Source: a virus. Taken from it: 20,057 nucleotides of DNA. The stretch lies in IMG/VR virus record IMGVR_UViG_3300030102_000849, positions 2,609-22,665 of that record. The stretch is one strand, 5' to 3'. Below, piece after piece: positions 3,402 through 17,016 of this stretch. Each line of letters opens with the position of its first letter. The first letter of the stretch is position 1. A model generated the notes under the pieces. The model made no database searches. It was given only the letters and a program-made list of their open reading frames with translations, and was not told where the DNA came from. The position numbers and the translations under genes were made by a program.

Positions 3402-3698
3402 ATGGATACAACAGAAGATCAAGTCACTATTGAAAGAATCCACAGAGAGTATGAAGAAATGTTCAGAACTCAAGGTTGGAAAAATCTTCTCAAAGACTTA
3501 ACTAATAATGCAATTCAAATAAACTCAGTAGATGCTTGTAAAGACCTAAAAGAACTTCATTTTCGTAAGGGTCAACTTTCAATTATAGCAAATGTATTGA
3601 GTCTTGAACAAAGTTTAAAAACAGCTAAAGAACAAGCTGAACAAGAAGAAATAGAATCACTTGAAGAAGATACTGAAGTTTCTAAAAGCATAAACTAA
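3402..3698 (+). CDS. Helical acidic protein upstream of scaffold
   Basis: First gene after the promoter; the ribosome site GGAGA (3391-3395) sits six bases before ATG. The product has 98 residues and is almost wholly helical, with the pattern RIHREYEEMFRTQGWKNLLK, then INSVDACKDLKELHFRKGQL and a long acidic coiled coil (EQAEQEEIESLEEDTEVS). I recognise the YEEMF-T-GWK and LYFRKGQL-like segments from small proteins that precede the scaffold in marine podoviruses; their role is unknown. It could help in head assembly, judged from its operon partners. Its stop overlaps the next start (TAATG). Confidence 0.85.
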   Translation: MDTTEDQVTIERIHREYEEMFRTQGWKNLLKDLTNNAIQINSVDACKDLKELHFRKGQLSIIANVLSLEQSLKTAKEQAEQEEIESLEEDTEVSKSIN

Positions 3699-3928
3699 TG
3701 AGAATCTTTATTGATTTTAAATGCAGTAACGGACACACTACTGAAAAATTTATAGATAATAAAACTAAAGAAATAGAGTGTCCAGTTTGTTCAGAAATAG
3801 CTAGTAAAGTTATATCTCCTGTTCGTAGTCTCCTTGATCCCATATCAGGTGATTTTGTAGGTGCTACCATGAAATGGGCTAGAGACCGCGAAAAGAAGAT
3901 ACAAAAAGAACGTAAGGCAAATTCGTAG
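3698..3928 (+). CDS. Zinc-ribbon protein, FmdB-like
   Basis: A 76-residue protein with a zinc-ribbon: Cys9 and His13 (KCSNGH), then Cys28 and Cys31 (CPVCS), 15 residues between the pairs. This matches the size and layout of FmdB-type regulatory zinc ribbons, with His replacing one Cys. The second half has a conserved-looking SLLDPISGDFVGATMKWARD followed by a basic helix (REKKIQKERKANS). The combination of ribbon and LDPISGDFPGAT-like segment recurs in marine phage genomes between the portal and capsid genes. Function unproven; protein or nucleic-acid binding is inferred. It is translated with the gene before it through a one-base overlap. Confidence 0.85.
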   Translation: MRIFIDFKCSNGHTTEKFIDNKTKEIECPVCSEIASKVISPVRSLLDPISGDFVGATMKWARDREKKIQKERKANS

Positions 3929-4829: not shown

Positions 4830-5786
4830 ATGGCTACATCAACATATCCCGCAATGGGCGGGGCGGTAGGAGTATCAGACGTAGGTACGTTTATTCCAGA
4901 GATTTGGAGTGACGAGGTTATTGCCGGTTATGAAAAATCTTTAGTACTTGCTAATTTAGTCAAAAAAATGGCTATGACTGGTAAGAAAGGAGATACTTTA
5001 CACATACCAAAACCAACAAGAGGTACTGCCTCTCAAAAAGCTGAAAACACAGCAGTAACAATTCAAAACGCATCTGAAAGTGAAGTTCAAGTAACAATTA
5101 ATCAACACTTTGAGTATTCACGTTTAATTGAAGATATTGTTGAAGTTCAAGCTTTAGCTTCACTACGTCAGTTCTACACAGGTGACGCAGGTTACGCTCT
5201 TGCTAGACAAGTAGACTTAGACTTGTTTGCACTTGGTAAGTCACTAGGTGACGGAGATGGATCAGACTTTACACACTCAAACGTATTTAATTTTAAAGGT
5301 ACAAATGGTATTGAATTATATGCGGCTGATGCTGTTGCTGATACTGACGTTTTCAATGATGCCGGTTTCCGAGCGGCTATCCAACAACTAGATGACGCAG
5401 ATGTCCCAATGGACGGACGTTCTTTAGTTATACCACCATCAGTAAGAAATGAAATTATGGGTATTGACCGATATATGTCTTCTGACTTCGTAGACGGAAG
5501 AGGCGTAAGAAACGGTCTTATCGGTAACCTTTATGGTATCGATATCTTTGTTTCATCTAACTGTCCAGTAATTGAAACTGCGGCTCAAAATAGCGCAGGT
5601 ACAAAAGATGTCAAAGAAGCTCTACTTCTCCATACAGACGCTATGGTTATGGCAGAGCAACAAGGTGTACGTTCACAGACTCAGTACAAGCAAGAGTTCC
5701 TTGGAACCTTGTATACTGCTGACACTCTTTACGGAGTCAAGGTACTTCGACCAGAGTCAGGCATAGTATTAGCTGTCAACGGATAA
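4830..5786 (+). CDS. Major capsid protein
   Basis: 318 residues; AAGGA at 4816-4820 precedes the ATG. This is the shell subunit. The sequence has the features of T7-like/HK97-fold coat proteins: a Gly/Ala-rich N-arm, TFIPEIWSDEVIAGYEKSLV, a long helix, KGDTLHIPKPTRGTA (E-loop region), HFEYSRLIEDIVEVQA (spine helix), RSLVIPPSVRNEIM and YGIDIFVSSNCP near the A-domain, and a basic/aromatic end. It lies directly after the scaffold and before a strong hairpin, the same arrangement as T7 gene 10 with its terminator. Codons here are less A-ending than in the neighbours, as expected for a highly expressed gene. Confidence 0.93.
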   Translation: MATSTYPAMGGAVGVSDVGTFIPEIWSDEVIAGYEKSLVLANLVKKMAMTGKKGDTLHIPKPTRGTASQKAENTAVTIQNASESEVQVTINQHFEYSRLIEDIVEVQALASLRQFYTGDAGYALARQVDLDLFALGKSLGDGDGSDFTHSNVFNFKGTNGIELYAADAVADTDVFNDAGFRAAIQQLDDADVPMDGRSLVIPPSVRNEIMGIDRYMSSDFVDGRGVRNGLIGNLYGIDIFVSSNCPVIETAAQNSAGTKDVKEALLLHTDAMVMAEQQGVRSQTQYKQEFLGTLYTADTLYGVKVLRPESGIVLAVNG

Positions 5787-5835: not shown

Positions 5836-6150
5836 ATGGCATTATTTAGAGGAGCAGGTGGCTCTGGAACATCTACAGCTTTTGGTCTTCTTGATGAAGT
5901 TACTCAACAAGCTTTACTTGCTCAAAACGCAAGTGCTCTTGCAACTCAAGCTATTAACTCTTTTGATAGTTTTGATGATAGATATTTAGGAAGTAAAACT
6001 TCAGACCCTACTTTAGATAATGATGGAAATACATTATTAGTAGGTGCTTTGTATTTTAACTCTTTATCAAATGATTTAAAAGTTTACACAGGATCAGCTT
6101 GGATAGTTACTTTAAATTCAAATAGTAATATAGACGCAGGAAATTTCTAA
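5836..6150 (+). CDS. Short tail-fibre/collar-type structural protein
   Basis: 104 residues; AGGAG at 5826-5830 precedes the ATG. It has an Ala/Ser-rich N-half with a helix (DEVTQQALLAQNASALATQA), then FDDRYLGSKTSDPTLDNDGN and GALYFNSLSNDLKVYTGSAW, an element commonly found at the N-terminal end of phage tail fibres and collar-attachment proteins. Here it stands alone, so it may be a small adaptor between tail and fibre. It ends NSNIDAGNF, close to the last residues of two other small fibre-like proteins in the window. It overlaps the next gene by one base. Confidence 0.75.
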   Translation: MALFRGAGGSGTSTAFGLLDEVTQQALLAQNASALATQAINSFDSFDDRYLGSKTSDPTLDNDGNTLLVGALYFNSLSNDLKVYTGSAWIVTLNSNSNIDAGNF

Positions 6151-7115
6151 TGGCACAAACAATTCAAATTAAAAGAAGCACCGGAAACTCGGCTCCAACT
6201 AGTCTGGCTAACGGTGAATTAGCTTATCTTAATCACGCTTCCGCAAAAAAACTTTATATAGGCCGTCCCGGTGGCAACGCAGGCGATATTGACATTATAG
6301 GCGGTAAAGATACGGTCGATTTAGCTGACGGTGCGCTACAAAGAAATGGCGGCACAATGACAGGTGATATTACATTTAACAGCACGCAAGCTTTTGATGG
6401 CAGAGATTTATCTGTTGACGGTGCAAAATTAGACGGTATTGAGTCTAGCGCAGATGTAACAGATGCTACGAATGTTGCGGCCGCAGGTGCATTAATGAAA
6501 ACTGGCGGCACGATGACTGGAAATCTTCAGCTTGAGGACGGTGTAAAAATTCAATTTGGTGATAATCAAGATTTTCAAATAGTTCATGGGGCGACTACTG
6601 GGAATTTTATATTTGACCAAGGTCCGGGTGATTTTAAATTAATTACTAACGGTTCTGGCATCGAGATACGTGGTGGTGGTACAACAGGCGGCTCTTCAAA
6701 TGTTAGTTTAGCAAAATTTCATTCTGATACTTCAGCGGCCTCTGGTGATCAATATTATGTTCAATTAAATCATGGAAGCAGTGGTTCGCAAAAATTGCGA
6801 ACAGCTTCTGGTGGTGTTGAAATTACTGGAAGCCTCACTGTATCTGGTGACTTAAATATTACTGGAGATGTCAATAGTACCAGTGTTACAGATTTAGATG
6901 TTACTGATAAAACTATAACAGTCGGTGTAGGGCAAACATCTGCACAAGCAGGAGCGTCAGGTCTTGAGGTTGATCGGACTGACGGAACTAATCCAAAATT
7001 TTTATACAACGGAACACAATTTGAAATCGATGACGGTGACGGTAATTTACATGGAGTTATACACGAAGGTAATTCTGCTACACAAACTTACACTATTGAT
7101 GGCGGTACATTTTAA
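6150..7115 (+). CDS. Tail fibre protein, 321 residues
   Basis: The N-terminus (MAQTIQIKRSTGNSAPTSLA, then NGELAYLN) is of the type found at the start of many fibre proteins and resembles the N-terminal domain of the Bordetella phage Mtd protein. Two GGTMTG motifs follow (residues 67-72 and 119-124), a repeat well known in phage fibres, with a FDGRDLSVDGAKLDGIES segment between them. The rest is beta-repeat sequence rich in Gly, Asp and Thr (SLTVSGDLNITGDVNSTSVT), ending YTIDGGTF. It would form a trimeric beta fibre. No chaperone domain is present at its C-terminus, unlike in the next gene. Codons are visibly richer in G and C than those of the head genes. Confidence 0.85.
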   Translation: MAQTIQIKRSTGNSAPTSLANGELAYLNHASAKKLYIGRPGGNAGDIDIIGGKDTVDLADGALQRNGGTMTGDITFNSTQAFDGRDLSVDGAKLDGIESSADVTDATNVAAAGALMKTGGTMTGNLQLEDGVKIQFGDNQDFQIVHGATTGNFIFDQGPGDFKLITNGSGIEIRGGGTTGGSSNVSLAKFHSDTSAASGDQYYVQLNHGSSGSQKLRTASGGVEITGSLTVSGDLNITGDVNSTSVTDLDVTDKTITVGVGQTSAQAGASGLEVDRTDGTNPKFLYNGTQFEIDDGDGNLHGVIHEGNSATQTYTIDGGTF

Positions 7116-7129
7116 TTAGGTAGTCCTTT

Positions 7130-10100
7130 ATGGCTCAAACAATTAAGTTAAAAAATTCTGGTACGTCATCTAATATACCCTCATCATTAGAACATGGTGA
7201 GTTAGCTATTAACTATGCTGACGGCAAAATATTTTATAAAAACTCTAGTAACAATATAGTTGAATTTGCTTTATCAAGCACTGCAACAGGCGTAAATGTT
7301 ACAGGCGTAAGTACAAATGCCGCATTAGGACTTGTGTTTCACACTGGCGGCAACACATTACAAACAGATGCCCATTCTCAATTAACCTTTAATCCATCAA
7401 CAAACATTTTAAGTGTTCCGAAAATTGGGGTGGGAACGTCAGCACCCGCGACTTTATTTAATGTATTTACTGATACAGGTCGTGATTTTAGAGTTGATCA
7501 TGGAACTGCAAATAGAACGATATTATCTACTGATCGTGGAATGATAATCAAAGCGGGTGGAGGTTATTCATTAGATTTAGATACAAATAGTTCAAGCGGA
7601 ACACTGCGGTTTTTTGCTAACGGTAGTGAGGTTGCTAAGTTTGATAGTTCTGGTAATTTTACTATAACGGGATCAAACGCTGATCTTACTCTTGGCGCAA
7701 CTGGCAATGATATTACATTCAATAGAAATGCTGATAATTATATAAATGCTCAAGCGGGAACATCTTCAAATATAATAATCAATCCTGAAAATCGTTTTGT
7801 TGTAAATACATCAGATACAGAGCGTTTACGCGTTGATAGTTCTGGTCGTTTACTCATTGGGACAACAAGCACGACTCCGGGATTCTCTACAACAAACGGA
7901 CATGCTTTTCACGTAGGAGATGCGTCACATATATCTCGTGATCAAGGTGTTGCTCTTGTTATAAATAGAGGAACGAATGATGGTGGAATAGTACAGTTCA
8001 GAAAATCAGGCACTTATGTAGGCGGTATTGAATCTCGTTCAGGTGCTGTCACTACAATGATTTTCGATCCACGTACAAATGGATCGGGAATAAGTGGTAC
8101 AACAAACGGTTTAATACCAACAAACCAATCAGGAACACCAACAAATAATCATGTTGATTTAGGTTCAAGTACTAATAAATTCAAAGACGCTCATTTCAGT
8201 GGAACAATAACTGGTGGACAAGACTTTAAAGCCACTGGCAATAACATGAAACTTCATGCGGGTGGCAATCATATTATCAACATGGATTTAAACGGTAAGT
8301 TTTATCCACAAACGCATAATGCCGTTGATCTTGGTTATAGCAGTACGTTAGCGTTCAAAGATTTGTATCTTAGCGGAAGTATCAAACATTCGGGTGACAT
8401 GACCATCGATGTTGGTGGTGGAGATATCTTGTTAAAAGACGATGGGACATGGTTTGGCTTGATAGCAAATACAAGTAGCGATTTGGTTATCAAATCCATC
8501 ATACAAGACAAGGATATAATCTTTAAAGGAAATGACGGTGGATCGAATGTCGATGCGCTTAGACTTGATATGAGCCAAGCGGGTGAAGCAGATTTCAATA
8601 GTGCCATAAAAGTAGCGGGTGGTATTGTTGCTCATCAAACAAACAGAGGTGTATTGGAATACGCATCAAATGTTTTCAAGATACGATCTTATGGTGCTAC
8701 CTCTGGAAGTGGCTCAATAACGCTTTCAACAGGTGGAGGCGGTGCAAGTGCTGATACGGTTGCTCTTACATTAGATAGCAACCAAAACGCTACATTCTCA
8801 GGTAGCGTTAGTACAGATCAAATAAACAGCGATTCTTTCAATCTACGCAATACCTCAAATGGCAATATGATCAAAGCTGTTTCGGGTGGTGCAGTAACTT
8901 TGTATCACAATGAAAACGCTGTGGTTAAAACAAATGGCAGTGGTTTAGTTGTAGAGTCTGGCATGAATTTTAACATGACAGGCAATATGATGATCGGAGC
9001 GACTACTACGCCCGCTTCAAGGCTCCACGTCCAAAATTCGACAACGGAAGAATTTATTTTTGAAACAACCAATAACAGCACTAGGTCACAATTAGAAGTT
9101 AAATCTCCAAACAGTTCTGGCAATCCTATACAGGTCAGACTAAGCAGTATGGGAGATAGTAATTATGGCTTGCTCTACACATTTACAAACCACAATTTAA
9201 GTTTTGCAACAAATAACGCGGCTCCACAAATGACTCTGGATACATCAGGGCGCTTGGGTATTGGAACTTCTCCCGCACAAAAACTTGACGTTGCAAATGG
9301 TCATATAAAACTTTCCGCAGGTTACTCCTTACAATGGGATAATTCTCACGAAAGAATAGAACAATCAGATGGTAATTTAGAATTTTTTACAAATAATAGT
9401 CAACAAATGACCATAAGTGGCTCAAATGTTGGTATTGGTACATCATCCCCTAATTCGTATTCTGGTTATAACGCACTAACAATCAATGGTTCAAGTGGAG
9501 GCTTGTTAGATTTTGAAACAAACGGCACATTTGTTGCAGAGGTTTGGGGAGATGGAACCGCGGGTTTAGGATTACAAGCAATCGGAAGTCGGTATATAAG
9601 ATTTCTCACTAATAGCACAGAGCGCGTAAGGCTTTCGCCAGATGGTAAGCTTGGAATCGGAACCTCATCGCCAGACGCACCTTTAACAATTCATAATAGC
9701 TCCGATCCAGAAATTAGAGTTGGATATAACTCATCACAAGATCACAGACTGACTTGGGATAGTTCAAAGTTATTTTTAGACGCTGATCCAGATAATGCTA
9801 ATAACAACTCAGCGTTGGGTTTTAGAGTTGACGGCAGTCAAGTCGGTTATTTTACTAATAGCGGAAATTTTGGTATCGGAGCGAGCACATCGCTTAGTTA
9901 CAAGTTCCAAGTGAGAAACGATGTTGCCGCATCAACCGATTTAGATCCCGCTTCAGTACGTCTTTACAACAACTCTGATGGTGGCGCGGCAATTTTATTT
10001 GAGAATGGCGTATCAGCAAAATCAAAAATTTCTTTTGGTGTGGAAGGAACTGGAGCAAGCACAGATGAAACTTTCATAGGCTTTAGCACTGGTGCTAATA

Positions 10101-12745
10101 CGTCAATGAGTGAAAGCGCGAGGATAACAAGTGGCGGTTCTCTTCTTGTTGCTAAAAGCGATTTTACTTTTACGACTACGGGTATTGAGTTACGAGGCGG
10201 CAATGGCGGAGCACGGTTTATTAGAAGCAACGCCGAACCTGTCATTATGAACCGAACAGGTTCAGACGGTAAAATCCAAGGACTGTATAAAGATGGAGTT
10301 GAAATAGGTAGTATTGGTGTAGACAGCGGCGACAACTTATACATTGCAGGGTCTGCGTCTAATCATGCCGGTTTGTATTTAGGTACAAATGTAGTTGCTC
10401 CTCTCAGCGCAGGAAGTTTAACTGACGATGCTGTTGATATAGGAAATTCCGATTATCGTTTTCAAGACGCTAATTTAAGTGGGACGGTAAATGCAAACAA
10501 TATAAGTGTTGCAGAGGATATTAAACACGCAGGCGATTCTGACACTTACATAAGTTTTGAAAGTAACAGCCAAGTATTTTATTCGGGCGGAACACGAAGC
10601 ATCGATCTGAATCCGGGGTCAATAGTTCTCAATGAAGGTGGTGGTGATCAAGACTTTAGAGTAGAAGGTGTAGGCAAAAGTCATTTGTTATTTACAGATG
10701 CCGCAAATGGTAGGGTTGGCATAAATATATCAAATCCTACACAGACTCTTGATGTTAACGGTGGCGCTAATGCGTCAGCAAGATTTATCACAGGAAACTC
10801 AGCGGCACAATTTAATCAATACAATAGCGGAGCAGTGTTGTGGCTTGATGGATCAGATGGCGATTTTGCGGGTGGTGATTACTTTGGATTACACGCACAA
10901 TCAGCAACCGATTTTTACATTAGTTATGCTTCAGCAAGAATAATGACCCTTACGAGTGGATCGCTTGTTGGTATTGGCGAACAAAATCCAGACTCTCAGT
11001 TACACATTAAGAAATCTGGACCGATCAATATTACAAGTGGCGCGAATCGTACAGGTGCAGTCTTAACACTAGAGCACGATGCACAGTGGGAGAACGGTTA
11101 TACAGGCGGTGACTTCTACGGTGGTATTGAATTTAAGAGTGGTGATGGTTCATCGGGTCAAGGTTTACGAGCCGCAATACGATCTGAAAATACAACTTAT
11201 TACAATGCAAGCAACTTAGTTTTACAGGTTGCTAACCATGACGACAATATTACAGATACCAAAGTAGAAATCGAAACTCACGCGATTACATTCTTTACAA
11301 ATAATACGTCTGGCACGAACCAAGAACGAGCAAAAATTACTGACGAACAATTACTTGTCGGTAAATCTGCGAGTAATATAGCTACGCAAGGTGTTGAAAT
11401 ATCAACGACAGGTCAGATTGTTGCATCACAACCGGGCGCATCCGCTTTAAAAGTCAATCGGCAAACTAATGAAGGTGCATTGATTCAATTCTATCAAGGC
11501 AACAACTTTCGGGGTGAGATTGGGATATTTGGCTCTGATCCTTATATTGGTTTACAAGATACAGGATTACGATTTGGTTATGCGGGACTAAATAACATTA
11601 TCCCATTTGACGTTAACGATGTTCAGATAAGTGACAATGCAACAAGCCTAGGGCATCAAAACGCTAGGTTCCACGATCTTAATATGGGCGGGACTGCTTA
11701 TATCGGGGAAAAAATTGCGGTGGGTACGACATCAGCAGACGGTTTGTTGCACGTTTATAAAGGAAACAGTGGGCATACTTGGAGCTTTGATGGTGGCGAT
11801 GCTTTTATTCTTGAAAACAGCGATTCAGTAAGCATTAATATTGCTACCCCCGCATCAAATAGTGGAAACATTTTATTCTCTGACGTAAACGCAAGAGGTC
11901 AAGGGCGTATTTCTTATACTCACCATGACGATGCTATGTCATTTATGACGGGGGGTATTAGCAATACGCGTCTGTTTATTAACAGTTCTGGACGTGTTGG
12001 TATAAACACAGTATCACCCACAACAAAATTAGAAGTAAAAGACACTGGATCAACTTCTCTTGGTGATGACGCTAACGTCATGCGAGTAGTAGGTGATGAT
12101 CACACTAGATTGGTTATAGAAAGCACATCGACAAGCGGACACAGAGGTTGTTTAGTACTCAAGTCAGATGGTGGTGAAGAAGTAGATATTTCCACTTTTG
12201 GCAATAACATCATGCTTTTCAATGTTAATAGACAGGAGGCTATGAGGATTGATGCTAATAAACGCCTTATTATTGGCGGGACATCATATGGAGCCTCAAA
12301 CAGTGTTGGTATTAATTCAAGCGGATCAGCATATTTTGATTCTACAGCTACAAATGTTGTAGAAGTAAACAGAACTTCAAATGGAAATGCCTTGGCGTTT
12401 CATAATAGCGGTAGTTTGGTTGGCTCAATAACTCTCGGTAATACATCTACCGCATATAACACATCTTCAGATGCTAGATTAAAAGACAATATTGAAGATG
12501 CAGACGATAGCGGTGAAAAAATAGACGCTATTCAAGTCCGTCAGTTCGATTGGAAGTCAACTGGCAAACATCAAGATTTTGGAATGGTTGCACAAGAGTT
12601 GATCCATGTAGCTCCTGATGCTGTAACTGTACCAGAAAATACAGGCGAAATGATGTCTGTAGATTACTCAAAACTAGTTCCTTTACTTATGAAGGAAATT
12701 CAACAACTACGGGCGAGAGTCCATAAACTCGAAGAGGAAAAATAA
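7130..12745 (+). CDS. Giant tail fibre with C-terminal S74 self-cleaving chaperone
   Basis: 1871 residues, 28% of the window; AGG at 7118-7120 precedes the ATG. Residues 1-46 repeat the N-terminal module of the fibre before it (SLEHGELAINYADGKIFYKN). The long middle is beta-rich Gly/Ser/Asn/Thr sequence with about eleven G-I-G-T-x-x-P type motifs and four V-D-L-G...F-D...SGT units, typical of trimeric fibres. The C-terminal part from residue 1779 has SSDARLKDNI and FDWKSTGKHQDFGMVAQELI, the signature of the intramolecular chaperone of endosialidase (peptidase S74), and ends in a coiled coil. It likely recognises the host surface. No enzymatic (glycanase) domain is recognisable by eye. Confidence 0.92.
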   Translation: MAQTIKLKNSGTSSNIPSSLEHGELAINYADGKIFYKNSSNNIVEFALSSTATGVNVTGVSTNAALGLVFHTGGNTLQTDAHSQLTFNPSTNILSVPKIGVGTSAPATLFNVFTDTGRDFRVDHGTANRTILSTDRGMIIKAGGGYSLDLDTNSSSGTLRFFANGSEVAKFDSSGNFTITGSNADLTLGATGNDITFNRNADNYINAQAGTSSNIIINPENRFVVNTSDTERLRVDSSGRLLIGTTSTTPGFSTTNGHAFHVGDASHISRDQGVALVINRGTNDGGIVQFRKSGTYVGGIESRSGAVTTMIFDPRTNGSGISGTTNGLIPTNQSGTPTNNHVDLGSSTNKFKDAHFSGTITGGQDFKATGNNMKLHAGGNHIINMDLNGKFYPQTHNAVDLGYSSTLAFKDLYLSGSIKHSGDMTIDVGGGDILLKDDGTWFGLIANTSSDLVIKSIIQDKDIIFKGNDGGSNVDALRLDMSQAGEADFNSAIKVAGGIVAHQTNRGVLEYASNVFKIRSYGATSGSGSITLSTGGGGASADTVALTLDSNQNATFSGSVSTDQINSDSFNLRNTSNGNMIKAVSGGAVTLYHNENAVVKTNGSGLVVESGMNFNMTGNMMIGATTTPASRLHVQNSTTEEFIFETTNNSTRSQLEVKSPNSSGNPIQVRLSSMGDSNYGLLYTFTNHNLSFATNNAAPQMTLDTSGRLGIGTSPAQKLDVANGHIKLSAGYSLQWDNSHERIEQSDGNLEFFTNNSQQMTISGSNVGIGTSSPNSYSGYNALTINGSSGGLLDFETNGTFVAEVWGDGTAGLGLQAIGSRYIRFLTNSTERVRLSPDGKLGIGTSSPDAPLTIHNSSDPEIRVGYNSSQDHRLTWDSSKLFLDADPDNANNNSALGFRVDGSQVGYFTNSGNFGIGASTSLSYKFQVRNDVAASTDLDPASVRLYNNSDGGAAILFENGVSAKSKISFGVEGTGASTDETFIGFSTGANTSMSESARITSGGSLLVAKSDFTFTTTGIELRGGNGGARFIRSNAEPVIMNRTGSDGKIQGLYKDGVEIGSIGVDSGDNLYIAGSASNHAGLYLGTNVVAPLSAGSLTDDAVDIGNSDYRFQDANLSGTVNANNISVAEDIKHAGDSDTYISFESNSQVFYSGGTRSIDLNPGSIVLNEGGGDQDFRVEGVGKSHLLFTDAANGRVGINISNPTQTLDVNGGANASARFITGNSAAQFNQYNSGAVLWLDGSDGDFAGGDYFGLHAQSATDFYISYASARIMTLTSGSLVGIGEQNPDSQLHIKKSGPINITSGANRTGAVLTLEHDAQWENGYTGGDFYGGIEFKSGDGSSGQGLRAAIRSENTTYYNASNLVLQVANHDDNITDTKVEIETHAITFFTNNTSGTNQERAKITDEQLLVGKSASNIATQGVEISTTGQIVASQPGASALKVNRQTNEGALIQFYQGNNFRGEIGIFGSDPYIGLQDTGLRFGYAGLNNIIPFDVNDVQISDNATSLGHQNARFHDLNMGGTAYIGEKIAVGTTSADGLLHVYKGNSGHTWSFDGGDAFILENSDSVSINIATPASNSGNILFSDVNARGQGRISYTHHDDAMSFMTGGISNTRLFINSSGRVGINTVSPTTKLEVKDTGSTSLGDDANVMRVVGDDHTRLVIESTSTSGHRGCLVLKSDGGEEVDISTFGNNIMLFNVNRQEAMRIDANKRLIIGGTSYGASNSVGINSSGSAYFDSTATNVVEVNRTSNGNALAFHNSGSLVGSITLGNTSTAYNTSSDARLKDNIEDADDSGEKIDAIQVRQFDWKSTGKHQDFGMVAQELIHVAPDAVTVPENTGEMMSVDYSKLVPLLMKEIQQLRARVHKLEEEK
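7424..12040 (+). repeat. Degenerate protein-level repeats in the giant fibre
   Basis: Motifs of the form [LVF]GI[GN]-x-x-x-P-x-x-x-L-x-[VI] occur at about residues 99, 242, 619, 709, 766, 840, 914, 1195, 1280, 1528 and 1623 (for example LGIGTSPAQKLDV and VGINTVSPTTKLEV). A second unit, V-D-[LI]-G-x(5)-F-x-D-x-x-x-[SG]-G-T, occurs near residues 341, 397, 1100 and 1502. Nucleotide identity between copies is low, so this is old divergent repetition, not recent tandem duplication. Confidence 0.75.
12467..12745 (+). other. S74 chaperone domain, predicted cleavage before Ser1780
   Basis: By analogy with the endosialidase tailspike chaperone, in which a Ser and a Lys five residues later form the self-cleavage dyad (S-D-x-R-x-K), Ser1780 and Lys1785 of this fibre are the counterparts. 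Cleavage between Ser1779 and Ser1780 would release 92 residues after the fibre has trimerised. The later conserved parts (FDWK, GMVAQEL, DYSKLVPLL) are present and the end is a charged coiled coil, so the domain looks intact. Confidence 0.8.
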
Positions 12746-12746
12746 A

Positions 12747-13082
12747 ATGGCAGTAACTTGGAAAATCGTTCAGTTAGAGCGTAATTCAAAAGCACCTAAT
12801 AAGGACGGAGTAATTGTCGCTCATTGGGAGTGCACAGATAGTGAAACAGTAGGAACTGGAGATAGCGCAGTAAACCATTATGGGCGTATGTACGGGTCAA
12901 TTTCGTGGACTCCAGATTCTACAAAAGAAGGTTATATTAAATGGTCAGACTTAACCGAAGCAGACGTTATTGGTTGGGTACAAGAATCTGAGCAAATTAA
13001 TAAAGATGAAATCGAAGCAAGTGTAGCGGCTCAAATTGCTGAGTCTAAAGCACCTGCGGTAACAATGGGAGTGCCTTGGTAA
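12747..13082 (+). CDS. Small beta-rich protein following the fibre
   Basis: 111 residues, two bases after the fibre stop; GAGG within the last fibre codons serves as ribosome site. It reads MAVTWKIVQLERN, VIVAHWECTDSETVG, YGRMYGSISWTPDSTKEGYI, KWSDLTEADVIGWVQE, and ends PAVTMGVPW. The W-I-x-Q-x-E-R, AHW-x-x-x-D-x-E and DLTE-VIGWV pattern is a family of short proteins found beside tail-fibre genes in many marine phages, function unknown. Its place suggests a fibre assembly helper or minor tail component. It overlaps the next gene by one base (TAATG). Confidence 0.8.
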   Translation: MAVTWKIVQLERNSKAPNKDGVIVAHWECTDSETVGTGDSAVNHYGRMYGSISWTPDSTKEGYIKWSDLTEADVIGWVQESEQINKDEIEASVAAQIAESKAPAVTMGVPW

Positions 13083-13387
13083 TGTCTAATCCTAGTGTAC
13101 AACTGCCCTTGTGGGCCTTGCCTTTGGTGGTATCGGTGTTTGTTGGTGCAGTCTCCTACGGAGCGGCCCAAGCTAATGCACAGGCTACCGCTAAAGAGGT
13201 TGAACGAGTTGAAAAGATAGTTGAGAAGGTTCAGGCTAGTTCATCTGAGCATGGTAAGCAGATAGCTTTGAATTCACAGGCAATCAAAACGATTGCTGAT
13301 GGATTAGCAGAGCAAGCTGAAATATCTAAAAGCACAGATGAAAAGTTAGGCAAACTTATTGAGATAATGCTAGAATCTAAAAGGTGA
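13082..13387 (+). CDS. Membrane-anchored coiled-coil protein, possible inner spanin
   Basis: 101 residues from ATG at 13082 (TAATG overlap); an in-frame TTG six bases earlier is less likely. Residues 6-29 form one hydrophobic segment (VQLPLWALPLVVSVFVGAVS), followed by a Glu/Lys/Gln-rich helix to the end with heptad-like spacing (KEVERVEKIVEKVQ, IKTIADGLAEQAEI). A membrane anchor followed by a coiled coil is the architecture of Rz-type inner spanins. The next gene, an exported product, overlaps its end by four bases and a holin lies 0.8 kb downstream, which would fit a lysis locus. Alternatively it is a hypothetical tail-associated protein. No lipoprotein partner is adjacent. Confidence 0.75.
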   Translation: MSNPSVQLPLWALPLVVSVFVGAVSYGAAQANAQATAKEVERVEKIVEKVQASSSEHGKQIALNSQAIKTIADGLAEQAEISKSTDEKLGKLIEIMLESKR

Positions 13388-13635
13388 AATTAAAACTTCT
13401 ATTTGCACTTATAATTATTGTAGAGGGGGAGCCGGAAGGAAAACGTACTACATACTGGAGAAGCTTACAGGACTGTCGGTGGTATGCACAACTGCTAAGT
13501 CAAGAAGACAGCTACTATCATCCTGTGGAAAAAGCATATTGTAAAGCGGCTTGGGTAAATCCAGATGAAGTGGAAATAAATAGTTTAAAAATAAAACCAA
13601 AACCAATAGCAGAAGAAAACGAAAACAATAATTAG
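13384..13635 (+). CDS. Small exported protein, GTG start
   Basis: 83 residues; the start is a GTG in a GTGA overlap with the previous stop, chosen because no ATG follows in this frame and the first residues form a short signal-like hydrophobic stretch (MKLKLLFALIIIVEG). The rest reads RTTYWRSLQDCRWYAQLLSQ, YYHPVEKAYCKAAWVNPDEV and an acidic/Asn tail. Two cysteines 31 residues apart could form a disulfide after export. The DCR-YA-LS...YC-A-WVNPD pattern is familiar from many marine phage proteins of this size near fibre and lysis genes; its function is not known. There is no lipobox, so it is not a classic outer spanin. Confidence 0.75.
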   Translation: MKLKLLFALIIIVEGEPEGKRTTYWRSLQDCRWYAQLLSQEDSYYHPVEKAYCKAAWVNPDEVEINSLKIKPKPIAEENENNN

Positions 13636-13644
13636 GTAATTATA

Positions 13645-14211
13645 ATGACTACAATTTTAATTAAATCAAAAACTACTTCAGGAGCACCTGCTGAATCAGA
13701 CTTAACAGTAGGCAATAACTCTAGTACTTTTGGTTCTGAAATAGCAGTAAACACAGCAGATCAAAAGATATATACTAAAAATGTATCTGGTAGTGTTGTT
13801 GAGTTATCTCCTGCTTTACATGCTTATCCTGTAGGTTCTATTTATATTAGCACTTCAGCTACTAATCCTTCAGGAATTTTTGGAGGAACTTGGGAAGCAT
13901 TTAGTGCCGGAAGAGTATTAGTGGGACACAGCGGATCAGACGGTGATTTCAATGCGGCAAGTGCTACAGAAGGTGGAGCAAAAACAGTAACAGCCAGTAT
14001 TACAGTTCCTAGAGATGGTTGGGGAAATGAACAAACTGGAAATAAACTTACTGAGCCTACTCCGGCAGGTAGATTAATTACTGGAGATGGAACTTCAGAT
14101 AACCAAGATTTTAATAATTTAGCAACAGCATCAGGAGATAGAACTTTTACAGATGATATTTCTACTTTGCAACCTTACATTGCTGTTTATATGTTTAAAA
14201 GGACCGCGTAA
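13645..14211 (+). CDS. Short fibre protein with T4 gp10-C-like end
   Basis: 188 residues. The N-terminus (residues 1-54) has the same adaptor type as the two fibres upstream: SEIAVNTADQKIYTKNVSGS against GELAINYADGKIFYKNSSNN in the giant fibre. The remainder is a beta-domain starting YPVGSIYISTSATNPSGIFG, with GTWEAFSAGRVLVGH, and finishing LQPYIAVYMFKRTA. The PVGSIY...GTW...GRV-VG...LQPYI-VYMWKR frame is the C-terminal domain of T4 gp10/collar-type proteins. It probably trimerises as a short side fibre or a tip. The gene has a weak AT-rich upstream region; AGG at 13634-13636 is the likely ribosome site. Confidence 0.88.
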   Translation: MTTILIKSKTTSGAPAESDLTVGNNSSTFGSEIAVNTADQKIYTKNVSGSVVELSPALHAYPVGSIYISTSATNPSGIFGGTWEAFSAGRVLVGHSGSDGDFNAASATEGGAKTVTASITVPRDGWGNEQTGNKLTEPTPAGRLITGDGTSDNQDFNNLATASGDRTFTDDISTLQPYIAVYMFKRTA

Positions 14212-15230: not shown

Positions 15231-16759
15231 TGGCCCAACCAATAAAACAACTTACTATACAGGCTCCAGGATTTTTTGGGATAAATACCCAAGATTCCCC
15301 TGTAGGTATTAATCCTAATTTTGCTTCCGTTGCTAACAATTGTGTTATAGACAAGCAAGGAAGAATAGGGGCAAGAAAAGGTTTAAGTAGAATAAGCAAT
15401 GCTGATGTTACTAAAAATATTGAAACTATATTTGAAGCTACTGATCTTGATGGTGCAGTTACTTTATTTTCCACTGGTAATAATAAAATATATAAAGGTG
15501 ATACTACTTTAACTGAATTAAATTTACCTAATGGATATTCAATATCAGCTAATAATTGGAAAATAGTAAATTTAGCTAATAAAGTTTACTTTTTTCAAAC
15601 TGGCCATGTTCCTTTAGTTTATACTACAGGTACTTCTATTTTAGCAAATACAAACGCTCCTCAAGGTAATGAAGCATTAGCCGCTTTTGGTAGAGTTTGG
15701 GTAACAGACACAGCAAGCGATAAAAGTACAATTAATTATTCAGATGACTTAGACGGTACAACGTGGTCCGGAGGTTCATCAGGAACATTAGATGTAAGAG
15801 AAGTTTGGACATCAGGTGCAGATGAAATAGTTTCACTACAAGCACACAATGGTTTTTTAATTATTTTCGGTAGACATGAAATATTAATTTATAGAAATCC
15901 AGATGATGTAATAACTTCAGGAGAATTTTCTTTATCTGACACAATAGAAGGTGTTGGGTGTATAGATAGAGATTCAATACAAAATATAGGAACTGATATT
16001 TTATTTTTATCAGATACAGGAGTAAGAAGCTTAGGTAGAGTAATACAGGAAAAATCTTTGCCTATGAGAAATGTTAGTAAAAACATTAGAAATGATGTGT
16101 TAGACTTAATTGCTCAGGAAACATTGCCTATAAAATCAGCATATAGTACACAAGAGGCTTTTTATTTACTTACGTTTCCTACTAGTAATACTGTGCTTTG
16201 TTTTGATATTAGGTCTCCTTTAGAGGACGGAACTTATAGGGCAACAACTTGGTCTGAAATGAATCCTAAATGTTTTTGTGTTAGAAAGAATGGAGATTTA
16301 CTAATAGGTAAATTAGGAGGAATATATAAATATTTTGGATTTAACGATACTGAAGTAGTTAGCGGTGCTTATCAAATAACCGATTATGATTTAAGATATT
16401 TTAGCAATCCTATGAATTTTGGTAATTCATCAAATATTAAATTTCTTAAAAAACTTAAGATAAGAGTTATAGGTAATAATTCATCTGAGACAGTACTAAA
16501 TTGGGCTTATGATTATTCAACTAATTTTAACAAACAATTATTTGTAAATACTAACCAACAAACAAATTTAGCGGAATATGGAATAAGCGAATATAATACA
16601 ACTGCTGAATACTCAGGAGGACTTGATTTACAAAATCCAGAGGTTAATGGAACAGGAAGCGGAACAGTTTTAACTATAGGTCTTGAAACTACCATTGATG
16701 GGGCCGAATATTCAATACAACAAATAGACTTAAGTGTATTACTAGGGAGAATCATATAA
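15230..16759 (+). CDS. Tail tubular protein B-like (nozzle)
   Basis: 509 residues. I take the ATG at 15230, which overlaps the gp11-like stop, over an in-frame TTG at 15215. The N-terminus reads IQAPGFFGINTQDSPVGINP and NNCVIDKQGRIGARKG, the hallmark start of marine podovirus nozzle proteins (T7 gp12 counterpart). The body is beta-rich with repeated blade-like segments (GTTWSGGSSGTLDVREVW, VSLQAHNGFLIIFGRHEILI, DTIEGVGCIDRDSIQNIG, LFLSDTGVRSLGRV), consistent with a beta-propeller-like nozzle core. It would form the distal channel of the short tail. It is strongly AT-rich, unlike the fibre block before it. Confidence 0.87.
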   Translation: MAQPIKQLTIQAPGFFGINTQDSPVGINPNFASVANNCVIDKQGRIGARKGLSRISNADVTKNIETIFEATDLDGAVTLFSTGNNKIYKGDTTLTELNLPNGYSISANNWKIVNLANKVYFFQTGHVPLVYTTGTSILANTNAPQGNEALAAFGRVWVTDTASDKSTINYSDDLDGTTWSGGSSGTLDVREVWTSGADEIVSLQAHNGFLIIFGRHEILIYRNPDDVITSGEFSLSDTIEGVGCIDRDSIQNIGTDILFLSDTGVRSLGRVIQEKSLPMRNVSKNIRNDVLDLIAQETLPIKSAYSTQEAFYLLTFPTSNTVLCFDIRSPLEDGTYRATTWSEMNPKCFCVRKNGDLLIGKLGGIYKYFGFNDTEVVSGAYQITDYDLRYFSNPMNFGNSSNIKFLKKLKIRVIGNNSSETVLNWAYDYSTNFNKQLFVNTNQQTNLAEYGISEYNTTAEYSGGLDLQNPEVNGTGSGTVLTIGLETTIDGAEYSIQQIDLSVLLGRII

Positions 16760-17016
16760 TGTCTAATTATACTAAAACAACAAATTTTACAGCAAAAGAC
16801 TCTTTGGCTTCTGGTAATGCTAATAAAATAGTTAAAGGTGCTGAGATAGACACAGAGTTTACTAATATTGCAACACATATAGCAACAAAAGCAGATTTAG
16901 CTAGTCCTACTTTTACAGGAACAGTTAATGCTACAAACATTACTTTAGCAGGAACAATAACAGCCGCTAATATTGCGGGAAATTTAGCAGGAACGATAAG
17001 TGGAGGTACGTATTAA
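16759..17016 (+). CDS. Small tail-fibre-like protein, 85 residues
   Basis: Starts in a TAATG overlap with the nozzle. The N-terminus reads NFTAKDSLASGNANKIVKGA followed by EIDTEFTNIATHIATKADLA, an arrangement common in fibre N-terminal domains (x-F-x-x-K-D-x-L-x-x-G...KG-E-ID-EF-x-IA). The rest is ASPTFTGTVNATNITLAGTI, two beta-repeat units, and the C-terminus is GTISGGTY. It is therefore a fibre protein reduced to head plus a short stalk. It could be a tail tip or a docking point for other fibres. Its last residues resemble those of the proteins at 5836 and 6150. Confidence 0.8.
   Translation: MSNYTKTTNFTAKDSLASGNANKIVKGAEIDTEFTNIATHIATKADLASPTFTGTVNATNITLAGTITAANIAGNLAGTISGGTY

Follow-up and report, generated by a model that had tools for sequence, protein, structure and literature searches.

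Gene content and features of the window

The window, the whole stretch of 20,057 nucleotides that was analysed, corresponds to bases 2609 to 22665 of an IMG/VR virus record (IMGVR_UViG_3300030102_000849; 22,665 bases in total). Its gene order comprised a portal, a scaffold, a capsid protein, fibres, an SU10-type adaptor protein, and a nozzle-like protein. This layout is that of a small marine short-tailed phage (podovirus-like), and the isolates nearest by capsid protein were cyanophages, such as A-4L and Pf-WMP3, with approximately 30 – 35% identity. The features relevant to the fibres are listed in Table 1. The ORFs of the three fibre proteins of 321, 1871, and 188 residues were retrieved as a first-pass annotation, made from the sequence alone, had drawn them. 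The C-terminal S74 domain of the giant fibre and the gp10-C-like domain of the 188-residue protein, both named in that annotation, scored above the cut-off in Pfam. The latter match reached 73.7 bits, versus a curated cut-off of 27, and its sequence also matched PDB entries 6ov6 and 2fkk. The 321-residue protein gave weak or general fibre matches in Pfam and PHROGs. Elsewhere in the window, a 76-residue protein with cysteine pairs (3698 – 3928) has, from its sequence alone, a zinc-ribbon look of the FmdB type, and a DUF7936 protein (12747 – 13082; E 6e-20) is encoded between the giant fibre gene and lysis-like genes.

Table 1. Fibre-related features of the window (positions are those of the window).
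Feature	Position	Strand	Basis or remark
Major capsid protein	4830..5786	+	used to fetch relatives independently of fibres
104-residue protein, putative proximal anchor of chain 1	5836..6150	+	ORF; directly after the major capsid protein gene
C-terminal plug IDAGNF of the 104-residue protein	codons 6130-6147	+	plug rule
321-residue putative middle fibre of chain 1, class A module and plug	6150..7115	+	ORF, HMM, class rule
N-terminal module (putative socket), class A, of the 321-residue protein	6150..6305	+	iterated HMM, E 1e-15 to 6e-20
C-terminal plug IDGGTF of the 321-residue protein	7095..7112	+	sequence, plug motif
1871-residue giant fibre, putative distal part of chain 1	7130..12745	+	ORF, Pfam
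N-terminal module (putative socket), class B, of the giant fibre	7130..7285	+	HMM; family of the T4-type gp37 N-terminus
Peptidase_S74 intramolecular chaperone, giant-fibre residues 1780-1833	12467..12628	+	Pfam PF13884, E 1.4e-11
188-residue short protein, putative tip of chain 2	13645..14211	+	ORF, Pfam
N-terminal module (putative socket), class B, of the 188-residue protein, with an insertion of ~8 residues	13645..13809	+	HMM
gp10 C-terminal-like domain (Gp10_C), residues 60-187 of the 188-residue protein	13822..14205	+	Pfam PF21939, E 3.9e-20
85-residue protein, putative proximal anchor of chain 2	16759..17016	+	ORF; plug rule
C-terminal plug ISGGTY of the 85-residue protein	codons 16996-17013	+	sequence

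The shared N-terminal module

The N-termini of the three fibre proteins are related, as had been supposed; an iterated HMM started from each of them found the other two (E ≤ 1e-10). The ungapped 23-position match between the 188- and 1871-residue proteins, with its 12 identities, held on the sequence. In addition, the local alignments of the 321- with the 1871-residue protein and of the 1871- with the 188-residue protein scored above 2000 of 2000 shuffles; the direct alignment of the 321- with the 188-residue protein was weak, 46 of 2000 shuffles equalling its score. The module is about 45 – 55 residues long, its HMM matched 738 phage records, including residues 1 – 50 of T2 gp37, and it was located at the extreme N-terminus in all 162 matches at IMG/VR loci. 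A role of this shared module in attachment is supported. The 104- and 85-residue proteins were considered as further homologues of the module and rejected, their scores not exceeding those of shuffled controls.

Structures were predicted with AlphaFold2 as single chains, with alignments drawn from the window and IMG/VR loci only. A four-stranded module was predicted in a relative of the class B type described below (pLDDT ~90) and likewise in the 188-residue protein. The closest solved folds were the trimerization domains of collagens XVIII and XV (Z 5.0, rmsd 2.5, 52 of 55 residues); the score is middling and would fit a trimeric cap without proving one. Foldseek of the module model against the PDB gave nothing significant, and no PDB chain was matched by the module profile in a sequence search. 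A comparable case is Mtd of a Bordetella phage, a trimeric receptor-binding protein with a beta module at its N-terminus (Mtd_N; PF18454). The module model showed a weak fold match to residues 6 – 49 of Mtd (1yu4; Z 2.1), and several BFVD matches were proteins annotated with an Mtd N-terminal domain. Pfam Mtd_N matched neither the window proteins nor the record; as control genomes gave no match either, the domain may still be present. Finally, in a single-chain model of plug and module joined by read-through (TAA read as S), the module was folded and the plug was undocked (pLDDT ~60).

C-terminal plugs and their linkage to the module

In the relatives, the product of the gene 5' of a module gene nearly always ends in [ILV]x[GA]Gx[FY], with the consensus [I/L]DGGT[F/Y] and, in full form, [ILV]-[DNS]-[GA]-G-x-[FY]-COOH. 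The commonest of these tails, hereafter plugs, were IDGGTF, LDGGTY, IDAGNF, LDAGAF, and LLGGTY. The proteins bearing them are otherwise very unlike one another, comprising 104-like proteins, proteins of 126, 131, 152, and 384 residues, and module-bearing fibres. Three such tails occur in the window, missed by the first-pass annotation, on the 321- (TIDGGTF), 104- (NIDAGNF), and 85-residue (TISGGTY) proteins; the giant fibre ends without a plug.

The linkage between plug and module was counted over deduplicated gene pairs in the IMG/VR relatives, at loci picked by criteria other than the tail. A plug gene was followed by a module gene in 78 pairs and by another gene in eight, and a gene without a plug was followed by a module gene in 18 and by another gene in 1057. 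Loci fetched by the capsid protein alone gave 12, 2, 7, and 416 pairs, respectively. Similarly, of the proteins that themselves start with a module, 38 had a plug and a module in the next protein, three had a plug only, none lacked a plug and preceded a module, and 40 had neither; the three cases with a plug only reflected an interposed gene for a 69-residue protein, a gene-calling artefact, and a contig end. The P-values of 1e-17 to 1e-94 are nominal, the relatives not being independent and the motif pattern having been fixed after the first loci were inspected. Contigs chosen solely by DNA encoding IDGGTF followed by a stop carried a module ORF at most 1.5 kb downstream, mostly as the next gene, in 57 of 81 usable cases. 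The 124 DNA matches comprised 93 different nucleotide spellings, indicating that the peptide is what selection keeps and ruling out a DNA-level signal for translational coupling in its place. Plug genes precede module genes in isolates too, namely Vibrio phage 1.293.O, Pelagibacter phage Mosig, Limnohabitans phage DC31, and P-HM1. The rule linking plug and module is well supported at the level of sequence, with exceptions in both directions. For some plug genes, no module lay near enough to be paired, and some module genes, situated behind the capsid gene or within lysis regions, adjoined a gene without a plug; the modules of BcepSaruman, ACG-2014f, and S-CBS2 had no typical plug in front. Neither IDGGTF nor a C-terminal plug in phage fibres was found in the literature, a search with subscription journals mostly outside its scope, and an earlier description may exist.

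Several loci displayed peculiarities of their own. Many tail-selected ones contained a gene for 50 – 125 residues, often helical-looking (MDEQLLNEYINNLASQV...), between the plug gene and the fibre gene that follows it (L184, 8792 – 9001; L188, 7699 – 7905; also L191, L197, L199, L206, L282, and L302), possibly coding for a chaperone or a coiled-coil linker. On the reverse strand of L201, two neighbouring, unrelated-looking proteins (78 and 107 residues) share the ending IDGGTF, and no module lies within 1.5 kb of them. In L147 (2926 – 4334), a middle fibre gene is apparently split by a frameshift into a 58-residue module piece and a 355-residue remainder ending in IDGGTFS.

Plug and module also come and go together. 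In a matched family of anchors, that of the 104-residue protein, encoded right after the capsid gene and starting with M(A/P)(I/L)(F/Y)RG, the next gene started with a module in 13 of 13 cases when the anchor carried a plug, and lacked a module in 11 of 11 cases when the anchor was fused to a long fibre and carried no plug; none of the 24 was mixed. Likewise, a short 85-like anchor with a plug was accompanied by an otherwise unpaired module in the genome, even kilobases away (the window and genomes G001, G002, and G006), and genomes in which the 85-like anchor was fused to a long fibre (263 – 1367 residues; G003, G004, G007, G029, and G030) had neither plug nor module. The record G006 has its sole plug on the 85-like protein and its sole module on the 188-like protein, which fixes the pairing of these two. 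The numbers of plugs and modules were equal in 26 of 28 records when open-ended ORFs were included and the variant tail IDGENF was accepted as a plug, and were 3:3 in the window. The two unequal records were zobelliviruses of Vibrio, with three plugs and two modules. In the Zobellvirus Vibrio phages, two paralogous anchors each end in a plug (L349, 19809 – 20773; L354, 17944 – 18905). The 540-residue fibre of SIO1 (L352, 6348 – 7970) starts as the plug-bearing Vibrio anchors do (L349, 19809 – 20773), is fused and plug-less, and is a further fused-versus-split case.

The reading that best accounts for these data, with a probability of roughly 80%, is that the module of about 50 residues acts as a socket for the C-terminal plug of the preceding subunit, which would string fibre proteins end to end. 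Alternatively, the module may be a generic trimerization cap and the plug a generic stalk end, their linkage following from the gene order of fibre operons and not from binding. The occurrence of the module in 738 phage records and its predicted fold, like that of a trimerization domain, agree with such a cap, but the complete lack of plug-less module proteins in front of a module gene (0 versus 38 with a plug), the joint loss of plug and module where anchor and fibre form one protein, and the matching of plugs and modules across kilobases make it unlikely. The first-pass annotation had itself envisaged that the similarity would be generic to fibre starts, with no shared docking partner; the first half stands, in that the module is widespread, and the second does not, as candidate partners, the plugs, do exist.

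The module comes in two grades, likewise missed by the first-pass annotation. These were compared over 191 deduplicated plug-module pairs, 39 modules remaining unclassified by a simple rule. Class A modules (GELAY...KLFIG) are 321-like, and class B modules (GELAxNxxDxK) are 1871- and 188-like. Class A modules were preceded by an anchor without a module of its own in 59 of 60 cases. Of the 60 plugs before them, 29 had A at position -4 and 12 had T at -2; of the 92 plugs before class B modules, all had G at -4 and 80 had T at -2. The window plugs fit these grades, IDAGNF preceding the class A module of the 321-residue protein and IDGGTF the class B module of the giant fibre. This bears on the earlier proposal that the three fibres compete through a common adaptor for one site on the virion, giving mixed particles. 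The homology of all three modules would suit such competition, as would the shared grade of the 1871- and 188-residue proteins, whose presumed plugs (IDGGTF and ISGGTY) are alike. Yet the 321-residue protein has a module as well as a plug, which would place it in mid-chain ahead of the giant fibre, its module is of the other grade, each module has its own plug, and G006 retains just an 85-like plug and a 188-like module, so that one-site competition is very unlikely. It is hardly credible that plug and module are one stop-split domain fused by read-through or frameshifting, for the genes often abut (gaps of -1 to ~20 nt) but the gap lengths are spread over all three reading frames (66/43/83), often with extra stops, and read-through fusion is therefore not the rule, and partners may lie kilobases apart.

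Putative fibre chains and comparison with known systems

In the end-to-end arrangement, the module would form a small, probably trimeric beta domain at the end of a fibre subunit nearest the virion, and the C-terminal peptides of one trimeric subunit would insert into the module of the next trimer, joining fibre proteins in series without a peptide bond. A first chain would run from the 104-residue anchor (IDAGNF) via the 321-residue middle fibre (IDGGTF) to the 1871-residue distal fibre with its S74 tip, and a second from the 85-residue anchor (ISGGTY) to the 188-residue tip with the gp10-C-like domain. The N-terminal portions of both anchors would hold them on the virion. The 104- and 85-residue proteins had been put forward as docking partners before; the plug and module pattern favours them in that role, but the geometry probably differs from that proposed, each module having its own plug. 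A branched receptor apparatus, the other arrangement proposed, is not indicated, and two separate unbranched chains fit better.

The closest known counterpart is the distal half-fibre of T4, in which trimeric gp36 binds the N-terminal region of gp37 (PMC3004832). An HMM of the module that was built from the IMG/VR loci and the window, without any isolate, matched the gp37 N-termini of T-even phages (E 1e-10 to 1e-19). In addition, T-even gp36 proteins end in plug-like peptides, namely QDFGYY (T4T, G50), IQDFGTY (Karamvirus), VIDFGTF (Krischvirus), IIDFGSY and TIDFGTY (Klebsiella phages), and VIDFGVV (Serratia PS2). As in T4, the distal subunit of the window (the giant fibre) begins with a gp37-homologous module, and the gene just upstream encodes a proximal protein ending in a plug (IDGGTF in the 321-residue protein, IDFGTF-like in gp36). 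By this analogy, the joint between the 321- and 1871-residue proteins would correspond to the gp36:gp37 joint, including its physical docking. Unlike T-even gp36, which has F at plug position -4, the window has G or A; its genome is small and podovirus-like, with three plug-module pairs versus one; its anchors are a capsid-linked 104-residue and an 85-residue protein with no annotated link to gp34 or gp35; and its giant fibre has an S74 chaperone instead of gp38.

Branched receptor-binding complexes with a T4gp10-like domain and an N-terminal conserved peptide are known from G7C, K1-5/SP6, and Klebsiella phages (PMC6872550). They resemble the window in that one fibre protein is attached to another by a short conserved peptide. 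However, that peptide is N-terminal on the outer protein and produces branches by docking to a gp10-like domain, whereas the peptide of the window is C-terminal on the inner protein and would pair with an N-terminal module, giving chains. A complex of the G7C/K1-5 type was rejected for the window, as its Gp10_C domain is solely C-terminal, in the 188-residue tip, and its conserved peptides are C-terminal. In the T5-like phage DT57C, the outer fibre is likewise held via the inner one (LtfA/LtfB), the joint being reported as branched and not resolved (PMC10713586); the part of that description available mentions no plug motif.

Both the giant fibre and the 188-residue joints are of the T-type grade, and exchange between the chains is therefore possible, the 321 plug entering the 188 module or the 85 plug the 1871 module. 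In the three genomes with both chains (the window, G008, and G025), the 85-like plug was ISGGTY or ISGGSY, and that of the middle fibre was IDGGTF, INGGTF, or VDGGNF, differences that may keep the chains apart. More broadly, a general plug-and-socket code across tailed phages is moderately probable. It would have two or more grades, in which class A modules pair with A/N-type plugs and class B modules with T-type plugs; order and partners could be read from it, and fibres would have been lengthened, shortened, or exchanged at its joints in the course of evolution. The proposed joint would be the known one of the T4 distal half-fibre, with an apparent threefold use in a small marine phage and an apparently common occurrence in tailed phages. 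Few phages have fibres of several proteins whose order has been worked out, and in metagenomes fibre genes mostly lack an assignment; joints marked by a tail of six residues and a module of 50 would make fibre architecture readable from sequence, and joints of this kind would explain the natural mixing of anchors and adhesive tips. The plug-module pair also points to a testable interface for the gp36:gp37 joint of T4, for which no solved structure was found. Lastly, two partial contigs (L216, 13526 – 13762; L247, 5097 – 5330) encode proteins homologous to the 85-residue anchor that end in the plug IDGGTF, and the partner modules of these proteins are predicted to lie elsewhere in the respective genomes.
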